In this document: piece after piece, positions 1,890 through 64,000 of the stretch
Layout of the letters: each line of letters begins with the position of its first letter
Numbering within the stretch: position 1 is the first letter of the stretch
Source of the DNA: Elioraea sp. Yellowstone
GTDB taxonomy: Bacteria > Pseudomonadota > Alphaproteobacteria > Acetobacterales > Acetobacteraceae
Length of the DNA: 64,000 nt
Reading direction: 5' to 3'
Assembly: GCF_006704265.1 (NCBI RefSeq)
Contig: NZ_VIKA01000005.1
Span: forward strand, 1-64,000
Translations under genes and position numbers: made by a program
The notes under the pieces: model-generated
Database searches by the model: none
Seen by the model: only the letters and a program-made list of their open reading frames with translations
Told to the model about the DNA's origin: nothing

Positions 1890-3449
1890 ATGAGGCGGGT
1901 GACGGCCGCGGAGGCGGTGCGCGTGGTGCGTTCGGGCGACACGCTGCTGATCGGCGGATCGGGCGGCGGCCATGCGGTGCCGGAGACCCTGATGGCGGTG
2001 CTCGGACAGCGCTTCGTCGAGACCGGCGAGCCGCGCGGCATCACCGCGCTGCATCCCGTAGGCCTCGGCGATGGCGTCTCGCTCGGTGCCAACCATTTCG
2101 CGCACAAGGGGATGCTGAAGCGCGCCGTGGCCGGAACGTTCGTCAACTCGCCCAGGATCTCCGACCTCGCGATCGCCGACGAGATCGAGGCCTGGACGCT
2201 GCCGCAGGGCGTGCTGTCGCAGCTCATGCGCGAGATGGCGGCCGGTCGGCCGGGCCTGCTGACCCGAACGGGGCTGCACACCTTTGTCGATCCGCGCCAC
2301 GGCGGCGGGCGGCAGAGCCCGTCGGCCAAGGAAGATCTGGTCGAACTCGTCACGTTCCGCGGCGAGGAGTATCTGTTCTACAAGCCCTTCCATGTGGACG
2401 TGGCGTTCCTGCGCGGCACCACCGCCGACGAGGCGGGCAATGTCTCGATGGAGCAGGAGGCGGTGACGCTGGAGATGCTGTCGGAAGCGCAGGCGACCAA
2501 GCGCTGTGGCGGCGTGGTGATCGTTCAGGTCAAGCGCATGGCGCGCGCCGGAACGCTGCATCCGAAGATGGTGAAGATCCCCGGCATCCTGGTCGATCTC
2601 GTCGTGGTCGAGCCCGACCAGCGCCAGACCTACGAGACCGCCTATTCGCCCGCCTATTCGGGCGAGTTGCGCACGCCGCTCGATGACATCCCCGTGCTGG
2701 CGCTCGATGCGCGCAAGATCATCGCCCGCCGCGCGGCCCTCGAGTTGTTTCCCGGTGCGATCTGCAATCTCGGCAGCGGCGTGATGACCGGGATCGCCAA
2801 TGTCGCGGCCGAGGAGGGCGTGCTCGATCGCGTGTGCCTGACCAACGAGCAGGGCCATGTCGGCGGCGCGCCCGCCTCCGGCAACGAGGCGGGCGCGGCG
2901 ATGAACCCCGACGCGACGCTCGACCAGCCCTACCAGTTCGACTTCTATGACGGCGGCGGGCTAGACCTCGCGTTCCTCTCGTTCGCCGAGTTCGACCGGC
3001 AGGGGAACGTGAACGTCAGCCGCTTCGGCGGACGGATCATCGGACCCGGCGGCTTCATCAACATCAGCCAGCATGCGAAGCGCGTGATCTTCGGCGGCAC
3101 GCTCGCGGCCAGGGGCGGGGCGCCCAAGGCGGTGCGCGCGGTCGAGCAGATCACCTTCAGCGGCCCTTACGCGCGCGAGCGGAGCCAGCCCGTCATGATC
3201 GTCACCGAACGCGCCGTGTTCCGCCTGGTGCGCGAAGGGGTGGAGCTGGTCGAGATCGCCCCCGAGGCCGATCTCGAACGCGACGTGATCGGGGTGATGG
3301 CGTTCCGCCCGCTCGTCTCGCCGGCGCTGAGGCGCATGGATGCACGCCTGTTCGCCGCGGAGCGCATGGGGCTTGCCGCCGATCTCGCCGCGAGGCCCCC
3401 CAGGCCGCCGCCCGCACGGCTCGCCGATCCCGCCCGGCCGGCGGAGTGA
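1890..3449 (+). CDS. Acetate/propionate-type acyl-CoA:carboxylate CoA-transferase (family I, fused subunits)
   Basis: A 519-residue protein carrying both CoA-transferase halves in one chain, like propionate CoA-transferase or E. coli YdiF. The N-terminal half has the glycine-rich IGGSGGGHAVPETL near residue 20. The C-terminal half has TNEQGHVGGAPASG, where the Glu of the E-x-G motif is the expected catalytic residue forming the glutamyl-CoA thioester, and NVSRFGGRIIGPGGFINI further on. It moves CoA between acyl-CoA and a free acid. The start at ATG 1890 is chosen because GGGAG lies 9 bases upstream; the frame is open further up but without homology. Its stop overlaps the GTG of the MaoC gene, so the two are probably co-translated in acid activation followed by hydration. 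Substrate specificity is not evident. Confidence 0.9.
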   Translation: MRRVTAAEAVRVVRSGDTLLIGGSGGGHAVPETLMAVLGQRFVETGEPRGITALHPVGLGDGVSLGANHFAHKGMLKRAVAGTFVNSPRISDLAIADEIEAWTLPQGVLSQLMREMAAGRPGLLTRTGLHTFVDPRHGGGRQSPSAKEDLVELVTFRGEEYLFYKPFHVDVAFLRGTTADEAGNVSMEQEAVTLEMLSEAQATKRCGGVVIVQVKRMARAGTLHPKMVKIPGILVDLVVVEPDQRQTYETAYSPAYSGELRTPLDDIPVLALDARKIIARRAALELFPGAICNLGSGVMTGIANVAAEEGVLDRVCLTNEQGHVGGAPASGNEAGAAMNPDATLDQPYQFDFYDGGGLDLAFLSFAEFDRQGNVNVSRFGGRIIGPGGFINISQHAKRVIFGGTLAARGGAPKAVRAVEQITFSGPYARERSQPVMIVTERAVFRLVREGVELVEIAPEADLERDVIGVMAFRPLVSPALRRMDARLFAAERMGLAADLAARPPRPPPARLADPARPAE

Positions 3450-3886
3450 GGGCGATGCGGCTCGGCCTCTCCGCCGGCGACAGCGTGTCGTTCAGCAAGA
3501 CCATCACCGAGACGGATCTCGTGCTGTTCGCGGGCATCACCGGCGACTTCGATCCGATCCACATGGACGAGGCCTATGCCCGGACGACGCCGCTGGGCCG
3601 GCGGATCGCGCACGGCGCGCTGGTGCTCGGGCTCTGCAGCACGGTTGCGGCGATGATCGCGAGGCGCGCGCGCGAGGGCGGGGCGGAAGGTGTCGCGCTG
3701 TCGCTCGGCTACGACCGCGTGCGCTTCACCGCGCCGGTCTATCCGGGCGAGACCCTGACCGCGACCTACACGGTCGGCACGGTGGACGAGGCGGCCGCGC
3801 GCACGGTCAGCCCCGTCGAGGTGCGCAAGGAGGATGGCACGCTCGCGCTCGCCGCGACGCATGTGATGACGTGGGTGAGGGGCTGA
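3446..3886 (+). CDS. MaoC-like (R)-specific enoyl-CoA hydratase
   Basis: A 146-residue single hotdog-fold protein. The segment FAGITGDFDPIHMDEAYA contains the hydratase-2 motif, with the Asp and His of D-x-x-P-I-H as likely catalytic residues, followed by RRIAHGALVLGL, typical of MaoC dehydratases that add water to trans-2-enoyl-CoA. GTG 3446 overlaps the TGA of the CoA-transferase (GTGA); an internal ATG at 3455 is an alternative start. The pairing with a CoA-transferase suggests the two handle the same acyl-CoA. From its end to 4063 there is a 177-bp spacer with no recognisable gene. Confidence 0.88.
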   Translation: MRAMRLGLSAGDSVSFSKTITETDLVLFAGITGDFDPIHMDEAYARTTPLGRRIAHGALVLGLCSTVAAMIARRAREGGAEGVALSLGYDRVRFTAPVYPGETLTATYTVGTVDEAAARTVSPVEVRKEDGTLALAATHVMTWVRG

Positions 3887-4063
3887 GGCGGCTGTCCTCG
3901 GCGGCGGCGCGCGATGCCGGCGGCCGCCCGCGCCGCCGCTTCACCTTCCACCGATCCCACCCTTGCGCAAGGCAGCCAGCACCCGCTTGGGGCGCGTTCC
4001 GGCTCGACAGCGCGGCCCGGCGGCGGCAGGGTACCCGGCGACGGATGACGGGAGGGCCCTCCG

Positions 4064-5317
4064 ATCAGCACGCGCACGCTCGACACCGCCGCGGCCGCGG
4101 CACCGCGCCGCGCCCCGCGCGCCGGGTTCAACTACGCCGAAGGCAAGTCGGTCCGCATTCCGCGCCGGCTGCGTTCGATCCTCTCCCTGAACGACCTCGA
4201 AGCGGCCGGGCGGCGGCACCTGCCGCGTCCGCTGTTCGGCTTCGTCGCCGGCGCGGCGGAGGAGAACGCGGCGATCGCGGACAACCGGGCGGCCTTCGCC
4301 GAATGGGGCTTCGTGCCGCGCGTGCTGCGCAACGTCGCGCGGCGGACGAGCGAGATCGAGCTGTTCGGCCAGCGCTGGTCCGCGCCGTTCGGCATCGCCC
4401 CGATGGGGCTCGCGGCGCTGATCGCCTATCGCGGCGATCTCGTGCTCGCGCGCGCGGCCGAGGAGGCCGGCATCGTCAACATCATGAGCGGCTCCTCGCT
4501 GATCCGGCTCGAGGAGGTCGCGAAGGCTGCACCCGCGAGCTGGTTCCAGGCCTATCTGCCGGGCGATCCGGAGCGCATCCTCGGGCTGATCGACCGCGCC
4601 GCGGCGGCAGGCTTCGGCACGCTGGTGGTGACGGTGGACGTACCGGTGGCGGCGAACCGGGAGAACAACATCCGTTCGGGCTTCTCGACGCCGCTCAGGC
4701 CGAGCCTGCGGCTTGCCTGGGACGGAGCGATCCGGCCGCGCTGGCTGCTCGGCACCGCGGCACGCACGCTGCTTCGGCATGGCATGCCGCATTTCGAGAA
4801 TTCCTTCGCCCATCGCGGCGCGCCGATCCTGTCCCGCCGCGCCCTGCGCGACTTCTCGAGCAAAGACCATTTCGACTGGAGCCACATCGCGCTGATCCGC
4901 GAGCGCTGGCGCGGCCGACTGGTGATCAAGGGCATTCTCGATCCCCAGGACGCGCGGCTCGCGCGCGAGCATGGCGCGGACGGGATCATCGTCTCCAACC
5001 ACGGCGGACGGCAGCTCGACTATGCGGTCTCGGCGCTGCGCGCCCTGCCGGCGGTGGTGCAGGCTGCGGGCGACCTGCCGGTGATGCTGGACGGCGGTGT
5101 GCGGCGCGGCACGGATGTGCTGAAGGCGATCGCCTTCGGGGCGCGCTGCGTGTTCGTCGGCCGTCCCTTCCTCTTTGCCGCGGCGATCGCCGGGCATGAC
5201 GGCGTGGCGCATGCGATCGGCCTGCTGGCGACCGAGATCGACCGCGACATGGCGCTGCTCGGCATCACCTCGCTCGCCGAGATGACGACCGAGCGGCTGA
5301 TGCGCGTCACAGGTTGA
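4064..5317 (+). CDS. FMN-dependent alpha-hydroxy-acid oxidase/dehydrogenase, apparently with an ATC start
   Basis: A TIM-barrel flavoenzyme of the L-lactate dehydrogenase/glycolate oxidase/mandelate dehydrogenase family, oxidising a 2-hydroxy acid to a 2-oxo acid. Visible active-site elements are PMGLAALIAYRGD (FMN contacts), the Tyr of FQAYLPGD, the Asp of TVDVPVAANR, and SNHGGRQLDY with the His-Arg pair. Family-like sequence starts well upstream of the first in-frame GTG (4313) and continues back to codon 4064, which is ATC. It reads ISTRTLD, lies 7 bases after GGGAGGG (4050-4056), and an in-frame TGA at 4046 closes the frame. The natural start is therefore codon 4064, either a rare ATC start or a mutated or miscalled ATG. 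Length from there is 417 residues. The product is confident; the start is not. Confidence 0.85.
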   Translation: MSTRTLDTAAAAAPRRAPRAGFNYAEGKSVRIPRRLRSILSLNDLEAAGRRHLPRPLFGFVAGAAEENAAIADNRAAFAEWGFVPRVLRNVARRTSEIELFGQRWSAPFGIAPMGLAALIAYRGDLVLARAAEEAGIVNIMSGSSLIRLEEVAKAAPASWFQAYLPGDPERILGLIDRAAAAGFGTLVVTVDVPVAANRENNIRSGFSTPLRPSLRLAWDGAIRPRWLLGTAARTLLRHGMPHFENSFAHRGAPILSRRALRDFSSKDHFDWSHIALIRERWRGRLVIKGILDPQDARLAREHGADGIIVSNHGGRQLDYAVSALRALPAVVQAAGDLPVMLDGGVRRGTDVLKAIAFGARCVFVGRPFLFAAAIAGHDGVAHAIGLLATEIDRDMALLGITSLAEMTTERLMRVTG

Positions 5318-5356
5318 CCGGTTCCAGCCGCCGATCGCCCTTTCGGCTGGGGTACA

Positions 5357-5371
5357 GGGGGCGGCGCCCCC
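5357..5371. terminator. GC hairpin between convergent genes
   Basis: GGGGGC-GGC-GCCCCC forms a perfect 6-bp stem in the 57-bp gap between the convergent oxidase and pdxJ genes. A looser AGCCG/CGGCT stem lies just before it (5331-5347 region). There is no clear T-run, so termination is inferred from position and structure. Confidence 0.45.
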
Positions 5372-5374
5372 GTG

Positions 5375-6109
5375 TCATTGCCGACGCGCGTTGTCCATGC
5401 GCCGTCGCATCTCCCGGATCGCCGCGGCCAGCCCGATGAAGACGGCCTCACCCACCAGGAAGTGGCCGATGTTGAGCTCGACGATCTCCGGGATCGCCGC
5501 GATCGGCCCGACCGTGTCGAACGACAGTCCGTGTCCCGCGTGCACCTCGAGCCCGATCGCCGCGCCGTGCCGCGCGGCGGCGACGATGCGCGCGAGTTCC
5601 CGCTCGCGCGCCGCGCCGACATGCTCGCAATAGGTGCCGGTGTGCAGTTCCACCACCGGCGCGCCGATCTCGCGCGCGGCGTCGAGCTGGCGCGGATCGG
5701 CCTCGATGAACAGGCTGGCACGGATCCCCGCCTCGGCCAGCGCCACCACCGCCTCGCCCACCGCGGTGCGGTTGCCGATCACGTCGAGTCCGCCCTCGGT
5801 GGTGCGCTCCTCGCGCTTCTCGGGCACGAGGCAGGCGGCGTGGGGGCGCAGCGCGCGCGCGATGCCGATCATCTCCGGCGTCGCGGCCATCTCGAAGTTG
5901 AGCGGCAGCGCGATCTCGTCCTTGAGGCGACGCATGTCCTCGTCGCGGATGTGGCGGCGGTCCTCGCGCAGATGCGCGGTGATGCCGTCCGCTCCCGCTT
6001 CCTGCGCCAGCAGCGCGGCACGCACCGGATCGGGGTGCGCGCCGCCCCGCGCGTTGCGGATGGTCGCGACATGATCGACGTTCACGCCGAGGCGTAGGCG
6101 GGCTGCCAT
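5375..6109 (-). CDS. pdxJ: Pyridoxine 5'-phosphate synthase PdxJ
   Basis: A 244-residue protein opening [20 protein letters not shown] and containing [40 protein letters not shown] and HAGHGLSFD, all diagnostic of PdxJ. It condenses 1-deoxy-D-xylulose 5-phosphate with 3-amino-2-oxopropyl phosphate in the DXP-dependent vitamin B6 pathway, in the cytoplasm. The start at ATG 6109 matches the family N-terminus; the frame continues upstream without homology. It lies 28 bp after rsh on the same strand, a neighbourhood common in alphaproteobacteria, and is likely cotranscribed from the rpoZ promoter. Confidence 0.97.
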
Positions 6110-6137
6110 CGGGGTCCTTTCCTGCTCCGCGGCGCGG

Positions 6138-8318
6138 TCAGGCGCGCGCGCGCTCCACGGCGCTGATCTGGGGACTCGCGCGCAAGGCGGCGATGATGTC
6201 GCCGAGATGGCCGAGGTCGCGCACCTCAAGGTCGATCAGCATCTCGAAGAACTCGGGGGTACGGTTGACGATCTTGAGGTTGACGATGTTGCCCTCGCGC
6301 TTGGCGATGATGGTGGTCAGCGTCGAGAGCGCGCCCGGCTGGTTCGCGGTCAGCACCGTGATCCGGCCGACATGCTTCTGCTGCGCGGTCGGGTCGAGAT
6401 CCCAGGAGACGTCGAGGAAGCGCTCGGGCGTGGCGGCGAAGCTCTCGAGCGTCTGGCAGTCCGCGGTGTGGATCGTCACCCCCTTGCCGGTCGTGATGAT
6501 GCCGACGATGCGATCGCCCGGCAGCGGGTGGCAGCAGCCGGCGAAGTGCACGGCCATGCCGGCGACCAGGCCGCTGATCGGCACCTGGGCGGCCGGGGCT
6601 TCCCTGGCCGGTGCCGGCGGCTTCGGCCTGCCGCGCGCCATCGGCAGCATCGAAGGGACGCGCGCGGTCGGGCGGAGCTCCGGGTAGGCGGCGAACACCA
6701 CCTCGCGCGGGCCGATCGTGCCCGAGCCGACGGCGACATAGAGGTCCTCCACGCTCGCCTGCTTGAACGCCTTGAGCACGGATTCGAGCACCTTCTCGCC
6801 GCCCTCGACCCCTTCCTGGCGGAACGCCTTCACCAGCATGGAGCGGCCGAGCTCGATGTTCTGCGCGCGCTGCTGGGCATGGATGAAGCGGCGGATGCGC
6901 GCCCGCGCCTTGCCGGTGACGACGAACCGTTCCCAGGCGGGATTGGGCGTGTGGCCGCGCGCCGTGACGATCTCCACCTGGTCGCCGTTCTGCAGCTCCG
7001 TGCGCAACGGCATGATGCGTCCGTTGATCTTGGCGCCGACGCAGGTGTCGCCGACCTCCGAGTGGACGGCGTAGGCGAAATCGACAGGGGTGGCGCCGCG
7101 CGGCAGGGTGATCAGGTCGCCCTTGGGGGTGAAGCAGAACACCTGGTCCCGGAACATCTCGAGCTTGGTGTGCTCGAGGAACTCCTCCGGGCCGGAGGCC
7201 TGCTCCAGGATCTCGAGCAGCGAGCGCAGCCAGCGGTACTGGCGCGGCGCCTCCGCCGGCTTCGGCCCCGCCTCCTTGTAGGACCAGTGCGCGGCAACGC
7301 CGTATTCGGCGACCTCGTGCATCTCGCGCGTGCGGATCTGGATTTCGATCTTCTGCGCGCCGGGCAGGATCACGCCGGTGTGCAGGCTGCGGTAGCCGTT
7401 CGGCTTGGGCGTGGAGATGTAGTCCTTGAACCGTCCCGGCACGACGCGGAAGGCCGAATGCACCACGCCGAGCGCCCGGTAGCAGTCGTCGACCGTCTCG
7501 ACGACCACACGGAAGGCCATGATGTCGGAGAGCTGCTCGAAGGCGACGTTGCGCCGGTGCATCTTCAGCCAGATCGAGTACGGACTCTTCTCGCGCCCGG
7601 TGACCTCGGCCCTGATGCCGTGCTCTTCCATCATCCGGCGCAAGTCCTCGGTGACGCGGTCGATCACGTCCGCGCCCTCGCCGCGCAGGAACGCCACGCG
7701 GGCGAGGATCGAGGCATAGGCGTCGGGCTGCAGCTCGCGGAAGGCCAGGTTCTCGAGCTCGGTCTTCACCTGGTCCATGCCGATCCGCTCGGCGAGCGGG
7801 GCGTAGATCTCGAGCGTCTCGGCGGCGATCCGGCGCCGGCGCTTCTCGTCGCGCACGAAGCGCAGCGTGCGCATGTTGTGCAGCCGATCGGCGAGCTTGA
7901 CCAGCAGGACACGGATGTCCTCGCTCATCGCGAGCACGAGCTTGCGGAAGTTCTCGGCCTGCTTGGAGCGGTCGGACTGGAGCTCGAGCCGGGTGAGCTT
8001 GGTCACGCCGTCGACCAGCCGGGCGACGTCGCGACCGAACGCCTTCTCGACATCGGCGAGCGTGACGGGCGTGTCCTCGACCACGTCGTGCAGCAGCGCC
8101 GTGACGATCGAGTTCGAATCGACCCGGAATCCGGTCAGGATGTTCGCCACCTCGACCGGGTGGGTGAAGTAAGGCTCGCCATTGTCGCGTGTCTGGCCGA
8201 CATGGGCCTTGGCGGCGAAGGCGTAGGCGCGGCTGATGGTGTCGGCGTCAGCCCTGGGGTCGTAGGCGCGCACGCGCTCGACCAGTTCGCGGTCGAGAAG
8301 CGCCGTGCCGTCGGGCAC
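6138..8318 (-). CDS. Bifunctional (p)ppGpp synthetase/hydrolase (RelA/SpoT homologue)
   Basis: A 726-residue long RSH enzyme. In order: HD hydrolase domain ([12 protein letters not shown], then LLHDVVEDT near residues 50-90), synthetase domain ([49 protein letters not shown]; about residues 240-350), TGS domain (about 395-455), and a C-terminal ACT domain (last 80 residues). RFKD is the RxKD version of the motif that separates bifunctional enzymes from synthetase-only RelA (ExDD), so this one should both make and degrade (p)ppGpp and run the stringent response alone, as in most alphaproteobacteria. The start is GTG 8318, 80 bp after rpoZ. Symbol use varies (rsh, spoT, relA), so none is given. 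Confidence 0.96.
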
Positions 8319-8398
8319 CGCGGCGTCACCATCGCGGCGCAGGCAGGCGCCCGAACGGCAGCCTTGCCTGCGCCGGTCTCATCGCGGATGCCCCCGTG

Positions 8399-8785
8399 TC
8401 AGCCGCCGCCCAGTTCGCGGGCGATCGCGGCCTCGATGTCGTCCTCGGGGGCCGGCCCCTCCTCGGCGGCCTGCTCCTCGGGGCTGATATCCATGCCGGC
8501 GAAGATGTTGCTCTCGGTCGGCAGCAGGTCCATGACCTCCTCCGAGGCAGGCTCGGGCTCCGGCAGGCGCTGCAGGCTCTTGATGAGGTCGCTCTTCACC
8601 GCCTCGAGATCGATCGTGCCTTCGGCGATCTCGCGCAGCGCGACCACGGGGTTCTTGTCGTTGTCGCGCTCGACCGTCGGCGCCTCGCCCCGACTGATGT
8701 TGCGCGCGCGCTGGGCGGCGAGCATGACGAGCTCGAAGCGGTTCGGGACCTTGAGAACGCAGTCTTCAACGGTGACGCGCGCCAT
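8399..8785 (-). CDS. rpoZ: RNA polymerase omega subunit
   Basis: A 128-residue protein whose first 60 residues ([45 protein letters not shown]) match omega, the subunit that helps fold beta' and contacts ppGpp in proteobacteria. The acidic C-terminal tail (about residues 75-128) is typical of alphaproteobacterial omegas. ATG 8785 follows GGAGGG with an 8-base spacer. It heads the rpoZ-rsh-pdxJ run, placing the ppGpp target subunit next to the ppGpp enzyme. Confidence 0.96.
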
Positions 8786-8827
8786 GCGCTCGACCCTCCG
8801 GCACTGACGTCTGGGGCTGAACTCTCT

Positions 8828-8856
8828 CTAATAGTGATCCCGCGGTCGGAAGGCAA
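8828..8856 (-). promoter_or_regulatory. Candidate promoter of rpoZ-rsh-pdxJ
   Basis: On the minus strand, TTGCCT (8856-8851), exactly 17 bp and TATTAG (8833-8828) match the alphaproteobacterial housekeeping pattern CTTGAC-N17-CTATAT in its extended form (CTTGCC and CTATTA). The predicted transcript would begin about 36 bases before the rpoZ ATG. A small CCTGA/TCAGG stem at 8862-8876 overlaps the folK stop and may end the folK transcript. Confidence 0.5.
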
Positions 8857-8871
8857 GCAATCCTGACCTGT

Positions 8872-9387
8872 TCAGGGCAAGGGGTGGCAGTCCTCGTTCG
8901 CGGGCAGGGCCGCGATCAGCGTCGCGATCGCCACACCCGTGACGGGGTGGCGCCAGCCCGGCGCCACCTCGGCCAACGGGCGCAGCACGAAACCGCGGTC
9001 AGCGAGGCGGGGATGCGGCAGCACCGGCGCACCGCCCTGAACCAGCCCGTCCAGGTCGAGCAGATCGAGATCGAGCGTGCGGGCGGCATCGCGCCCGCCC
9101 CGTACCCGCCCTGCCTCGGCCTCGAGCGCATGCAGGGCCGCGAGCAGGGCTCTGGGCGTCGCCACGCCTGCATAGGCGGCGACGGCGTTGAGGTAGCGCG
9201 GCTGGTCCGAAGGCGGCACCGGGGCGGAGTCCCAGAACCGCGAGACCGCCTGCAGCCGCAGCCCGGGCAGCGCGTTCAGGCGCCCGATGGCCCAGGCGAG
9301 CGTGGCCCGCGGCGGCGCGCCACCGGGCCCGGGCAGATTGGCGCCCAGGGCGACAAAAATCATCTGACATTCTTTCGGAACATGCAC
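8872..9387 (-). CDS. folK: 2-amino-4-hydroxy-6-hydroxymethyldihydropteridine pyrophosphokinase (HPPK)
   Basis: A 171-residue HPPK. Seen: FVALGANLPGP at the N-terminus, SRFWDSAPVPPSDQPRYLNA, the metal/ATP-binding TLDLDLLDLDG, and HPRLADRGFVLRPLAEVAP. It transfers pyrophosphate from ATP to 6-hydroxymethyl-dihydropterin in folate synthesis. The ATG at 9387 has AGGG 7 bases before it; the shorter start at 9363 (MIFVALGAN) fits the family N-terminus better but has a weaker ribosome site. It is divergent from the NYN gene across 88 bp with no convincing promoter hexamers. Confidence 0.95.
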   Translation of the reverse strand: MHVPKECQMIFVALGANLPGPGGAPPRATLAWAIGRLNALPGLRLQAVSRFWDSAPVPPSDQPRYLNAVAAYAGVATPRALLAALHALEAEAGRVRGGRDAARTLDLDLLDLDGLVQGGAPVLPHPRLADRGFVLRPLAEVAPGWRHPVTGVAIATLIAALPANEDCHPLP

Positions 9388-9475
9388 GATACCCTATTCC
9401 CGTCAGCTTCGGTCGTGTTTAGCCTGCGCCGGCGCCGGAATCGCCCAGTGGCACAGGGTTCAGGAGCCAAAGAAC

Positions 9476-10156
9476 ATGTTCGAGAAATCTGAGCGCATCG
9501 CAGTCTTCATCGACGGGTCGAACCTCTATGCGGCGTCTCGGACGCTGGGATTCGATGTCGATTACAAGTCGCTGCATGCGTTCTTCCGAAGCAGAGCCTA
9601 TGTCGTCCGAATGTTCTACTACACCGCAGTGCTGGAGACGGAAGAGTACACGCCGCTCAAGCCGCTGGTCGACTGGCTCGGCTACAACGGCTACACGGTC
9701 GTCACCAAGCCCGCCAAGGAGTTCACGGACTCGACCGGCCGCCGCCGCGTCAAGGGCAACATGGACATCGAACTCGCCATCGACATGCTGGAGATGGCGC
9801 CGCACGTGAACCATGTCGTGCTGTTCTCGGGCGATGGCGACTTCCGCCGTCTGGTCGAGGCGGTGCAGCGCAAGGGCGTGCGCGTGACGGTGGTCAGCAC
9901 GATCCGCACCCAGCCGGTGCTGATCGCCGACGATCTGCGCCGCCAGGCCGACCAGTTCGTCGATCTCGCCGACATCATGGGCGAGTTCACCCGCCGCATC
10001 GTGCCGCCGCGCGAGCCCGGGGCGCCCCGCGAGCCGCGCGAGGGCGAGCGGGTGGGCGTGACGGGGCGGCCCTTCACGGTCGAAACCGTGGGCAGCCCGC
10101 GTGCGACGCCGTCCGAGCCCTGGCGCGGCGTGCCGGAGACCGGCAACGCCGAGTGA
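9476..10156 (+). CDS. NYN-domain (LabA/DUF88-like) putative RNase
   Basis: A 226-residue protein with a PIN-like NYN fold over residues 5-165. The acidic metal-binding set is present: Asp in VFIDGSNLYAA, Asp in GNMDIELAIDM and the Asp pair in LFSGDGDFRRL. LabA-type proteins are presumed nucleases, and the same gene often neighbours rpoZ/folK in alphaproteobacteria, but the specific RNA target is unknown. The C-terminal 50 residues are Pro/Arg/Gly-rich and probably disordered. The last codons overlap the GTG start of the uracil-DNA glycosylase gene by 4 bp (GTGA), suggesting coupled translation. Confidence 0.9.
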   Translation: MFEKSERIAVFIDGSNLYAASRTLGFDVDYKSLHAFFRSRAYVVRMFYYTAVLETEEYTPLKPLVDWLGYNGYTVVTKPAKEFTDSTGRRRVKGNMDIELAIDMLEMAPHVNHVVLFSGDGDFRRLVEAVQRKGVRVTVVSTIRTQPVLIADDLRRQADQFVDLADIMGEFTRRIVPPREPGAPREPREGERVGVTGRPFTVETVGSPRATPSEPWRGVPETGNAE

Positions 10157-10818
10157 GCCGCCGGCCTGCGGCGCCGCCGCGGGACTGCGCGCTCTGCCCG
10201 CGGCTCGCCGGGTTCCGCGCCGAGAACCGTGCGCGCTTCCCGGACTGGCACAACGCGCCCGTCGCCTCCTTCGGTCCGCTCGACGCGCCCCTGCTGATCG
10301 TCGGCCTCGCGCCCGGGCTGCGCGGCGCGAACCGCACCGGCCGTCCCTTCACCGGCGACTGGGCGGGCGAACTGCTCTACGCCACGCTGCTCCGCTTCGG
10401 TCTCGCCGAGGGCGTCTATGGGGCACGGCCGCAGGACGGGCTGCGCCTGACGCGCGCGCGCATCTGCAACGCGGTGCGCTGCGTGCCGCCCGGCAACCGC
10501 CCGACCCCGGCCGAGATCGCCGCCTGCAACCCCTTCCTCGCCGCCGAGATCGCCGCCATGCCAAGGCTCCGCGCCGTGCTGGCGCTCGGTGCGATCGCCC
10601 ACGGTGCGGTGCTGCGCGCGCTCGGCCGGCGCGCCTCCTCGGCGCGTTTCGCCCACGGGGCGCTGCACGCGCTCGACGGGCTGACGCTCGCCGACAGCTA
10701 CCATTGCAGCCGCTACAACACGAACACGGGCCGGCTGACCGAGGCGATGTTCCATGACGTGTTCGCGCAGCTCCTGCCGCGGCTCGCCCCCGCGTCCGGC
10801 GCCAGGACCCCCGGCTAG
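10153..10818 (+). CDS. Family 5 uracil-DNA glycosylase (UDGb type)
   Basis: A 221-residue uracil-DNA glycosylase. Family-5 landmarks: GLAPGLRGANRTGRPFTGDW (motif 1) and DSYHCSRYNTNTGRLT (motif 3). Cys residues at CALCPRL (N-terminal) and CNAVRCVPP are placed to hold a [4Fe-4S] cluster, as in families 4 and 5. It removes uracil, and in family 5 also other deaminated bases, from DNA to start base excision repair. Its GTG start is embedded in the stop of the NYN gene. The downstream MFS gene starts 15 bp later. Confidence 0.93.
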   Translation: MSRRPAAPPRDCALCPRLAGFRAENRARFPDWHNAPVASFGPLDAPLLIVGLAPGLRGANRTGRPFTGDWAGELLYATLLRFGLAEGVYGARPQDGLRLTRARICNAVRCVPPGNRPTPAEIAACNPFLAAEIAAMPRLRAVLALGAIAHGAVLRALGRRASSARFAHGALHALDGLTLADSYHCSRYNTNTGRLTEAMFHDVFAQLLPRLAPASGARTPG

Positions 10819-10833
10819 CGGATCGGGCGGGCC

Positions 10834-12006
10834 TTGCCGCGCGCCACGCCGCCGGTCTGGCTGCTCGCAGCGCTCGTCGCGCTGGGCCCGCTCTCGACCG
10901 ATCTCTACCTGCCGGCGCTGCCGGCGATCGCGGCCGCCTTCGCGACCGATGCAGCGGGCGTGCAGTGGACGCTGTCGGGCTATCTGCTCGGCTTCGCCCC
11001 GGCCCAGCTCGTCTACGGCCCGCTCGCCGACCGTTTCGGCCGCCGCCCGGCGGCGATCGTCGGACTCGCGGCCTATCTGGTCGCGACCCTCGCCTGTGCC
11101 GCGGCACCGAGCCTCGGCCTGCTGACCGCGGCGCGCGTCGCCCAGGCGCTCGGCGCCTGCGGCGGGCCGGTGATCGCCCGCGCGGTGGTCCGCGACACGA
11201 CCGATCCGCCGCGCGCAGCCGCCGTCTTCGCGACCATCGCCGGGCTGATGGCGCTCGCCCCGGCAGCCGGGCCGATCCTCGGCGGTGTCGTCGTCGGCCT
11301 GGGCGGCTGGCGCGCCGCCTTCTGGCTGCTCGCGGTGCTCGCCGGCGCGATCACCCTCGCGACGATCCGGCTCCTGCCCGAGACGGCGCCGGGCCTGGAC
11401 CGCGCAGCGCTCGACCCGGCGCGGCTGGCCGGCGCCTACCGCCTGATCCTGCGCGACCGGCGCTTCCTTGGCTTCGCCGGCGTGACCGCGGCGACCTACA
11501 CCGGCCTGTTCTGCTTCATCTCCGGCTCGTCGCACGTGGCGCAGACGGGGCTCGGCCTCGGCCCCGAGGCCTACGGGGTGATGTTCGCCGCCGCCGTCGC
11601 CGGCTACGTCCTGGGCAGCGCGATCGCCCGCCGCCTGAGCCCGCGCCTCGGAGTCGTCCGCATGGTGCGGATCGGCGTCGCGCTCTGCCTGGCGTTCGGC
11701 TGGTCGGGCCCGGCGGGACTCGCCCTCTTCGGCTCGGGCGTCATTACGGTCACTGCGCCGATGGCGCTCTACATGATCGGTTTCGCGCTTGCCCAGACCA
11801 ACGCCCAGGCTGGCGCCGTCGCCCCCTTCCCGCACATGGCCGGCCGCGCCTCGGCGCTGCTCGGCTTCCTGCAATGGGGACTGGCTGCGTTCGGCGGCCT
11901 CGCCCTGGCCCTGGTGCTCGACAGCGCCGGCTGGGCCATGGCGTTCGGCATCGCGCTCTCGGCGAGTGCCGCCGCGGTCGCGCTTGCCCTGCTGCCGCGG
12001 CGCTGA
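10834..12006 (+). CDS. Bcr/CflA-family multidrug MFS transporter
   Basis: A 390-residue polytopic membrane protein with about 12 hydrophobic segments. The N-terminal LGPLSTDLYLPALPAI, the loop ADRFGRRPAAI after TM2, and motif C in TM5 (LAPAAGPILGG) are those of the Bcr/CflA drug:H+ antiporters (DHA1). It probably exports small toxic molecules. The start is TTG 10834 (LPRATPPVWLLAAL); a ribosome site is poor. It follows the UDG gene by 15 bp but is functionally unrelated. The substrate is not predictable. Confidence 0.9.
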   Translation: MPRATPPVWLLAALVALGPLSTDLYLPALPAIAAAFATDAAGVQWTLSGYLLGFAPAQLVYGPLADRFGRRPAAIVGLAAYLVATLACAAAPSLGLLTAARVAQALGACGGPVIARAVVRDTTDPPRAAAVFATIAGLMALAPAAGPILGGVVVGLGGWRAAFWLLAVLAGAITLATIRLLPETAPGLDRAALDPARLAGAYRLILRDRRFLGFAGVTAATYTGLFCFISGSSHVAQTGLGLGPEAYGVMFAAAVAGYVLGSAIARRLSPRLGVVRMVRIGVALCLAFGWSGPAGLALFGSGVITVTAPMALYMIGFALAQTNAQAGAVAPFPHMAGRASALLGFLQWGLAAFGGLALALVLDSAGWAMAFGIALSASAAAVALALLPRR

Positions 12007-61186: not shown

Positions 61187-61322
61187 GCGGTTGTCGTTGC
61201 GTGATGCGGGGCGCAGAGTCGCATCCTGCCCGGGACCGAGGAGAGGAGCCGGGAGAGCAGCTCGGCGATCGCGCAGGATTGCACCGGACAGTCCCGGCGG
61301 AAGCAGGCAAGGTGCACTGGCC

Positions 61323-62000
61323 ATGAAGCCGATGGACGAAGGTCATTTCGCGATCCTGCGCCGCCACATGGTCGAGCTGATCGCGATCTACGGCGACCTG
61401 ATGAGCGAGGAGATTGGCAGGGCCACGTTCGACGAGCGTGTGCTTGCAGCCATGATGCGGGTGCCGCGGCACCGCTTCGTACCCGCCCCGCTCGTGCCGC
61501 TCGCCTACCAGGACGCGCCGCTGCCGATCGGTTTCGACAAGACGATCTCGCAGCCCTTCATCTGCGCGCTGATGGCGGATCTGCTGGCACCGGAGCGCGC
61601 CCATGCCGTGCTCGAGGTCGGCACCGGTCTGGGCTACCAGGCGGCGATCCTGGCGGAGCTCGTCGACCGGGTCTGGAGCGTCGAGGTTGTCGAGGAACTC
61701 GCCACCGAGGCGGCCTCGCGCCTGCGCGAGCTCGGCTACACGAATGTCACGCTCCGGATCGGCGATGGCTCGCGCGGTTGGGCCGAGCACGCGCCGTATG
61801 ACCGCATCCTGGTGACCGCTGCCGCCGAAGCGCCGCCTGCGGCGCTGATCGGGCAGCTACGCCCAGGCGGGCGGATGGTCATGCCGATCGGTCCGCCGGA
61901 CGGGCAGCAGCTGACGGTTGTCGACAAGACCGCCAGCGGAGAGGTTCGTGCCCGGCCGGTGCTGCCGGTCCGGTTCACCCTGCTGGAGACGGTGATCTAG
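61323..62000 (+). CDS. pcm: Protein-L-isoaspartate O-methyltransferase
   Basis: A 225-residue SAM-dependent methyltransferase that repairs isoaspartyl residues. RATFDERVLAAMMRVPRHRF, PIGFDKTISQPFICALMADL, the SAM-binding VLEVGTGLGYQAAIL, and RPGGRMVMPIGPPDGQQL match Pcm. The ATG at 61323 gives the family-like MKPMDEGHFAILRRHM; the frame continues upstream with no homology. The stop TAG is followed at once by an IS element, and the stop lies in the CTAG that flanks the element. Confidence 0.93.
   Translation: MKPMDEGHFAILRRHMVELIAIYGDLMSEEIGRATFDERVLAAMMRVPRHRFVPAPLVPLAYQDAPLPIGFDKTISQPFICALMADLLAPERAHAVLEVGTGLGYQAAILAELVDRVWSVEVVEELATEAASRLRELGYTNVTLRIGDGSRGWAEHAPYDRILVTAAAEAPPAALIGQLRPGGRMVMPIGPPDGQQLTVVDKTASGEVRARPVLPVRFTLLETVI
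61997..62000. repeat. CTAG, left flank of the IS element (possible target duplication)
   Basis: CTAG at 61997-62000 is repeated at 63453-63456 on the other side of the element. The left copy contains the pcm stop codon, so the insertion leaves pcm intact. Confidence 0.6.
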
Positions 62001-62048
62001 CAGCCTGTCGGATTCCCGTGCGGCCTGAAATTGGCGAATCTGCGGTGC

Positions 62049-63398
62049 ATGACGCAGTTCATACCTTTCAGCCGCGATCAGGCCTTCCTGCTGCCGCCGG
62101 AGGCCAAGGACTGGCTTCCGGCGGATGACGTGGCGCATGTCGTGGTGGTGGCGGTGGATCGTGTGCCGCTCGGCGCCTTCGCGGTGCGTCCGATCCCTGG
62201 CGGCAAGCCGCAGTACCATCCACGCCTGCTGCTGGCGCTGCTGATCTACGCCTACGCCAACGGCATCTTCTCCTCGCGCCGGATCGAACGGGCGACGCAT
62301 CGCGACCTCGGCGTGCGCTACGTGGCGGCGAACCTGCATCCCGACCACGACACCATCGCTGCCTTCCGCCGCGCCAACCGCGCCGCTTTCGAGGCGGCCT
62401 TCCTGCAGGTGTTGCTGCTGGCCAAGGAGAGTGGCCTGCTGCGGCTCGGCACGGTGGCGATCGACGGCACCAAGCTGGACGCCAACGCCTCCAAGCTCCG
62501 CTCGGTGCGCTACGACCGCGCCAAGGAACTGCGCGCCACGCTCGCCGCCGACATCGCCGCACTCACCGCCAAGGCCGAGGCCGCTGACGCCGAAGGCCAG
62601 CCCGACCCGCAGGCGCTGCCCGCCGAGATCGCCCGCCGCGAGGCGCTGAAGGCCAGGCTGGATGCCGCCTGTGCCCGGCTGGAGGAACAGGCCCGCGCCG
62701 AGGCCGAAGCCGCCCAGCCAGAGTACGAGGTCAAGCAGGCCGCCTACGACGCAAGGAAGGGCCGCCGGCGCGGCCGTCCGCCGAAGTCGCCCGAGGACGA
62801 CCCACCGCCGACCCGGCAGTCCAACCTCACCGATCCCGACAGCGCGCTGATGCGCCGCTCCGACGCGCATGACTATCGCCAAGCCTACAACGCCCAGGCC
62901 GTGGTCTGCGCCGAGGGCTCGCAACTGATCCTCGCCACCAACCTCACTGCCTGCCCGTCCGATGCGCCGAGCTTCGCTGCGACCATCCTCGGCATGAAGG
63001 ACGGAATCGGCCTGCCAGCGACCGTCATCGCCGACACCGGCTTCGCCTCGGGCGACGCCGTCGCCGCCCTGGAGGCAAAGGGGATCGAGCCGCTGGTCGC
63101 CATCGGCCGCACCCAGCCGGACCGACCCTACGACTTCCGCCCCCCGCCCGACCCGAAGCCGCCACGCCGCATCAGCGAACCCTGGCGTCTGAAGATGCTG
63201 GCCAAGCTGGAGACCGAAGATGCCAAGAAGCTCTACGCCCGCCGCAGGCAGACCGTCGAACCCGTCTTCGGCATCATCAAGGCCGCCCTCGGCTTCGTCC
63301 GCTTCCACCTCCGCAGCCTCGCCAAGGTCCGCGCCGAGTGGACCCTCATCGCCCTCGCCTACAACTGCCGCAGGCTGCACCGCCTGCAGCAGGCATGA
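62049..63398 (+). CDS. IS1182-family DDE transposase
   Basis: A 449-residue transposase. The N-terminal RDQAFLLPPEAKDWLPADDV and RLLLALLIYAYANGIFSSRR form the DUF772-type domain. TVAIDGTKLDANASK has the first Asp, ATVIADTGFASGDAVAAL the second, and RRQTVEPVFGIIKAALGFVR the final Glu in the YREK-like signature. A charged coiled-coil-prone insert (about residues 165-245, Ala/Glu/Arg-rich, then KGRRRGRPPK) lies between the first two Asp residues, as usual for this group. ATG 62049 is taken as the start; a TTG at 62031 is possible. Confidence 0.93.
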   Translation: MTQFIPFSRDQAFLLPPEAKDWLPADDVAHVVVVAVDRVPLGAFAVRPIPGGKPQYHPRLLLALLIYAYANGIFSSRRIERATHRDLGVRYVAANLHPDHDTIAAFRRANRAAFEAAFLQVLLLAKESGLLRLGTVAIDGTKLDANASKLRSVRYDRAKELRATLAADIAALTAKAEAADAEGQPDPQALPAEIARREALKARLDAACARLEEQARAEAEAAQPEYEVKQAAYDARKGRRRGRPPKSPEDDPPPTRQSNLTDPDSALMRRSDAHDYRQAYNAQAVVCAEGSQLILATNLTACPSDAPSFAATILGMKDGIGLPATVIADTGFASGDAVAALEAKGIEPLVAIGRTQPDRPYDFRPPPDPKPPRRISEPWRLKMLAKLETEDAKKLYARRRQTVEPVFGIIKAALGFVRFHLRSLAKVRAEWTLIALAYNCRRLHRLQQA

Positions 63399-63433
63399 CC
63401 TCACCACCCGCCACACCAAAACACAGGCCAAGA

Positions 63434-63452
63434 ACGCAAACCCGACAGACTG
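63434..63452. repeat. Right inverted repeat of the IS element
   Basis: ACGCAAACCCGACAGACTG mirrors the left end at 62001-62019 with four mismatches. CTAG follows at 63453-63456. Confidence 0.7.
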
Positions 63453-63457
63453 CTAGC

Positions 63458-63481: not shown

Positions 63482-63740
63482 CTCCGCCGCTTACCGACGC
63501 GCCGCTTCGCCCGCCCAGGCGGGACTCCCGGGCGGGATCCGCGGCGGCAGCCGCCCGGTGCCGGCCGCACGTCACGTGTCCGGCCTTGGCCGGTGACCCT
63601 TCCAATGACGGATGATATGGTTCCTCTTACGCACGGCGCATCGGACGGTTTCGTGTCGATCCCGGCGCACTTTCATCCTCATCGTGCCAGATCGAAGCGC
63701 CGCGGCGCGCAACGGCACGGATGAGCGCAGCCGTCCGGCG
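63482..63740. other. Spacer upstream of the cas3-like gene, no gene recognised
   Basis: I see no CRISPR repeats, clear promoter or gene here. It is the presumptive leader/promoter region of the cas3-like gene. Confidence 0.4.
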
Positions 63741-64000
63741 ATGGATCCCTTTCCGCACCCCTGGGGAAAGCTGCGACGACCGGCGCCGAGGCGTGGCCGG
63801 CAGCATTCCTCGCGCTTGCCGATCATTGCGCCGATGTGACTGCCGTCATGGCGGTGCTGCTTGAACTGCCCGTCATCCGGAGCCGCCTCCACAGGCTGAC
63901 AGGCGGTGCGGTGACGGAGGCTCATTGCAGAGCGATCCTGGGCGCCACGTTCCTGCACGACATCGGCAAGGCCAATCGCGGCTTCTGGCGCAAGCAATGG
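63741..64000 (+). pseudogene. Start of a Cas3-like HD nuclease gene, frameshifted and cut by the window edge
   Basis: ATG 63741 reads MDPFPHPWG, the usual Cas3 opening with H-P-W-G-K, but the next bases leave the frame. From 63767 the -1 frame continues KAATTGAEAWPAAFLALADH, then VLLELPVIRSRLHRLTGG and ATFLHDIGKANRGFWRKQW to the edge. This gives the Cas3 HD landmarks: first metal His in ADHCADV and the HD pair in LHDIGKANRGF. One base is apparently missing between GGGG (63763-63766) and AAA (GG-N-AAA would give W-G-K-A). Cas3 degrades DNA recruited by a type I Cascade. The helicase half and other cas genes would lie beyond 64000. Subtype is not determinable. Confidence 0.72.

Follow-up and report, generated by a model that had tools for sequence, protein, structure and literature searches.

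Does the Cas3-like reading frame at the right edge of this window mark the start of a type I CRISPR-Cas locus, as the initial annotation proposed? The window is the whole 64,000-nucleotide stretch of Elioraea sp. Yellowstone DNA that was analysed. Coordinates are those of its contig, which ends at 64966, only 966 bases beyond the window, inside an IS256-family element.

A type I-E Cas3 nuclease domain at the window edge

By profile matches, a type I-E cas3 begins in positions 63741-64000 on the plus strand, which hold the first part of its HD-nuclease domain. The domain matched Pfam Cas3_HD (PF18019; E = 2.6e-22, 80 bits against a cut-off of 23.1), TIGR01596 cas3_HD (53.3 bits; cut-off 43.45), and PADLOC Cas3e (2.1e-21), all far above chance. 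These matches agree with the initial annotation that the N-terminus of a type I Cas3 lies here. In the genome search, the PF18019 match spanned contig positions 63764-64393 and was stop-free throughout, and the DHCADV, HD, GHLREV, GHHGE, and ADW motifs all fall in the HD stretch that runs to 64493. Of the features of a type I-E Cas3, the Cas3-related HD nuclease domain is therefore present. The features of the region are as follows.

61191-62000, plus strand: pcm (protein-L-isoaspartate methyltransferase; Pfam PCMT, 2.5e-57); frame as listed, with the true start probably further in
62001-63452, plus strand: complete IS1182-family element (NCBIfam IS1182, 3.2e-99; terminal repeats and target-site duplication)
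63578-63740, plus strand: cas3 upstream region, homologous by blastn to the intact I-E locus of G003, with 63578 as the left limit of homology
63741-63839, plus strand: original cas3 start and shifted 32-residue frame (MDPFPHPWGKLRRPAPRRGRQ...APM), from translation; ends at TGA
63787/63788, plus strand: one-base deletion relative to relatives, from pairwise DNA alignment with G003 cas3; the G027 frame is unbroken there
63788-64000, plus strand: first part of the Cas3 HD nuclease domain, cut by the window edge and continuing on the contig to 64493

The HD domain shares 78% of its amino acids with the Cas3 of G003, a genome of the same genus whose cas3 precedes I-E genes, and 62% with the Cas3 of G027, from the same family. 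Alignment to the G003 cas3 locus gave 79.8% DNA identity over 922 bases (contig 63578-64493, blastn). The likeness to the intact fused nuclease-helicase genes of G003 and G027 consists of this HD identity and a WGKLRR start motif in both, and the fragment shares its start as well as that motif with G003. The likeness to the G003 locus also includes the region upstream of cas3. Beyond these genomes, plasmid relatives of the HD protein amounted to two matches at ~30% identity, a search for phage relatives matched none, and the only named organisms with a related locus were two partial matches, an Aquabacterium MAG and a Burkholderiaceae MAG. In a third family member (G016, C93:1-5574, 2593-5574), the Cas3 is more distant, with 39% identity over its HD part, and a CRISPR-like repeat array comes directly after it, where the contig ends.

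Upstream, pcm is the nearest host gene. The initial annotation had placed an insertion sequence next to cas3, and a complete IS1182 copy does lie there, with a 455-aa transposase (62031-63398) and CTAG duplications at 61997-62000 and 63453-63456. Its insertion point is the pcm stop codon, 288 bases upstream of the cas3 start. Because the CTAG duplication falls exactly at this stop codon, which lies within it, pcm was left intact. The IS1182 insertion is separate from the lesions in cas3 described below.

A one-base frameshift near the start of cas3

The cas3 ATG lies at 63741 in a frame that opens MDPFPHPWGKLRR (MDPFPHPWG...), and the HD domain lies one frame over. Read correctly, the start runs through MDPFPHPWGKLRRPAP and then into EAWPAAF... 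in the other frame. The corresponding parts of the relatives' genes are MHPFPHAWGKLRRLEPEAWP and FPHAWGKLRRRCSDAWP, each one continuous frame; in G027 Cas3, HAWGKLRR...DAW lies in a single frame, making this the second relative to back the frameshift. The unbroken frame from the start codon that a type I-E Cas3 should have is thus absent, with the gap at 63787/63788.

The initial annotation was correct that a 1-bp frameshift exists, and that a start codon and an HD domain together form a Cas3 N-terminus, but it set the shift between "WG" and "K", joining MDPFPHPWG to KAATTGAEAW. The true frame continues as WGKLRRPAP before the lesion, so "KAATTGA" is an out-of-frame reading, and the interval suggested for re-sequencing (63755-63775) misses the lesion. 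Because the site contains no homopolymer, a sequencing error is less likely here, but it is possible in a frameshift read from a single assembly.

Downstream of the lesion, the only usual start in the HD frame is a GTG at 63836, and the longest remaining open frame is 220 aa. Because this GTG comes after the histidine of DHCADV, the first metal-ligand histidine motif, a product of that frame would lack it. Judged from its sequence, the HD domain alone, lacking both DHCADV and the helicase, would probably be inactive. Functional Cas3 cannot be made here, and the suggestion that interference may be disabled can be put more firmly: the frameshift is backed by two relatives, and I-E interference must be disabled. 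Relaxed selection on the HD fragment in this lineage was not significant (23 nonsynonymous and 15 synonymous changes here vs. 22 and 25 in G003; Fisher p = 0.28), which indicates that the decay was probably recent or that the test was too weak.

Truncation by an IS256-family element

The HD frame stops at 64493, at the HD-helicase junction (...VRAMRLDG-stop), where G003 Cas3 continues with MRLDVVPARAAL into its helicase. From 64494, the sequence reads GTTAATGTCTCTTCGAGTGGTGTAGGAG..., and three other contigs carry the same 77 bases at their ends, next to different flanks, which marks position 64494 as a repeated element's left end. The first bases of this end, GTTAATGTCTCTTCG, contribute the GT and TAA of MRLDG-stop. 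An IS256-family transposase starts at 64648 and is cut short where the contig ends. Its 106 residues up to the contig end belong to this family by their match to PF00872 (Mutator-type, 6e-23), and they match NCBIfam IS256 at 7.8e-11, under the cut-off for the whole protein, which a partial copy would not be expected to reach. The element thus interrupts cas3 where the HD domain gives way to the helicase, and its own bases provide the stop codon. This truncation is enough by itself to disable the gene even if the frameshift is an error.

The left end of the element is found at four places in the assembly. A member of the IS256 family is expected to have paired terminal inverted repeats and an 8-9 bp target duplication. 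Searches of the assembly for the right end with DNA queries, an 18-base end pattern, and an inverted-repeat pattern of free spacer length returned only those left ends, and no duplication was found. Because the right end of this copy was not found in the assembly, its right junction is not seen.

Intact loci in relatives

By contrast with the one-base deletion and the stop at the IS256 end in the gene here, cas3 in the relatives encodes one fused protein in an open frame of 881-896 codons (896 in G003, 884 in G027). The G003 operon, on contig 7, comprises cas3, cas8e, cas11e, cas7e, cas5e, cas6e, cas1e, and cas2e, all recognised by I-E models, and is followed by an I-E array of at least 117 repeats at 61-base spacing. 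This array holds 114 different spacers among 116, and comparing its spacers with the window and the compared loci gave only short matches of chance size.

Search for the rest of the I-E system

The assembly consists of 358 contigs and is estimated to be 100% complete, with a contamination of 0.01. We searched it with the G003 operon as DNA (8.9 kb, beginning shortly before cas3 and ending within cas2), a query in which the HD piece at 63578-64493 served as a positive control. Only this piece matched, together with chance-size pieces of 35-63 bases. Cascade genes, which this query covered as DNA rather than protein by protein, were not found in the assembly. A helicase protein query against the assembly also found nothing, and the superfamily 2 helicase domain that in a type I-E Cas3 should follow the HD domain within one protein is missing from the frame itself, which ends at 64493. 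Neither cas1e nor cas2e was found in the assembly, where the sole match to the Cas1 model was a type II Cas1 and the operon DNA query was negative. The I-E repeat of G003 was likewise absent from the assembly at up to three mismatches, a search that leaves more diverged repeats outside its reach. Three helicase candidates, all on contig 122, matched Cas3-like_C_2 (PF22590) and were rejected. The first looks like an Lhr-type helicase; a phosphoesterase frame lies next to it, and cas genes are lacking nearby. The other two score below the cut-off.

The fragment thus differs from an intact I-E locus in that the helicase, Cascade, cas1e/cas2e, and array were not found in this assembly. The claim that a type I locus starts here fails on the very observation that the initial annotation had named as its refutation, the lack of helicase and Cascade genes downstream, although the HD domain itself is that of a Cas3. 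The related suggestion that other functions persist is not supported for the I-E system, of which nothing beyond the cas3 fragment was found, but it may hold for the genome through a separate type II locus on contig 336. This locus has the following features, numbered within contig 336:12000-31900.

10933-14436, minus strand: cas9, a 1,167-aa frame (TIGR01865, 7e-160)
9995-10999: type II cas1, the sole match to the Cas1 model in the genome
9670-10134: cas2-like frame
8132-9586: 23 CRISPR repeats at ~66-base spacing

The order cas9-cas1-cas2 without further genes is the arrangement of subtype II-C, to which this locus may belong.

Explanations for the cas3 fragment

These observations are very probably explained by a pseudogene: the 5' part of an I-E cas3, encoding its HD nuclease domain, left by a one-base deletion and IS256 truncation, with the rest of the operon lost. 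The sequence shows that the one-base deletion early in cas3 parts the HD domain from its start codon and that the IS256-family insertion at 64494 closes the frame at the HD-helicase junction. We infer that the lineage once had a complete I-E operon and array of the kind seen in G003, and that the part to the right was lost by deletion at or after the IS256 insertion. If any CRISPR immunity remains, the separate type II locus should be its source.

A simple IS256 insertion could instead have split an I-E operon that is still present, its right half being missing from the assembly; interference would then be dead, and Cascade and adaptation genes could persist. A contig that ends inside an IS256 copy fits an assembly broken at repeats, as does the lack of any IS256 right end. 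However, an assembly estimated as 100% complete would then have to lack an array and ~7 kb of unique genes, and queries with the operon DNA, the helicase protein, the Cas1 family, and the repeat revealed no I-E sequence, making this explanation unlikely. Given the unseen right junction, there is a residual chance that a small contig bearing the helicase is missing.

Explanations that leave the fragment a function fare worse. Stand-alone Cas3'' proteins occur in some type I systems, and that precedent, together with an open frame that holds every HD motif and selection that is not significantly relaxed, is consistent with a frameshift that is a sequencing or assembly error and an HD fragment made as a Cas3''-like nuclease ending at the IS256 boundary. 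Yet the lesion has no homopolymer, no partner Cas3' helicase or Cascade was found, and the relatives' I-E Cas3 is one fused protein of 881-896 codons; we consider this explanation quite improbable. Even less credible is rescue of the shifted frame by translational reinitiation, giving the 220-aa product some residual role. The TGA stop and the GTG at 63836 do overlap exactly (63834-63839), but this GTG is the valine codon of the DHCADV motif, the overlap results from the frame change, and the product would have neither the DHCADV histidine motif nor a helicase.

Precedent and implications

That insertions and deletions can ruin a cas operon is known, and the present case is ordinary decay and routine turnover of defence systems; our literature search found no paper describing this particular event. 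Escherichia coli B has had its cas gene cluster destroyed by multiple insertions and deletions, and in E. coli strain Crooks, an IS element lies within an array (PMC3032704). Our case resembles that of E. coli B in that a CRISPR-Cas locus was lost by insertion and deletion with remnants left, and differs from it in that only the 5' part of cas3 was found and the host and IS families are not the same.

Another genus of the family (G011, C14:80000-87000, 2624-6976) has an IS256 relative inside a type I-E-like array, directly after a repeat and with CGGGGAACG on both sides. If this subgroup of IS256 tended to insert in CRISPR-Cas loci, in cas3 here and in the array there, it would be a repeated cause of CRISPR loss. 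We give this notion very little credence, and the single array case is most likely a coincidence.

For annotation, the result is a correction: a match to the Cas3 HD domain should not place this genome among the carriers of type I CRISPR-Cas. The genome is also a clean example of I-E loss alongside a type II cas9 locus, and its genus supplies an intact I-E locus to compare it with.
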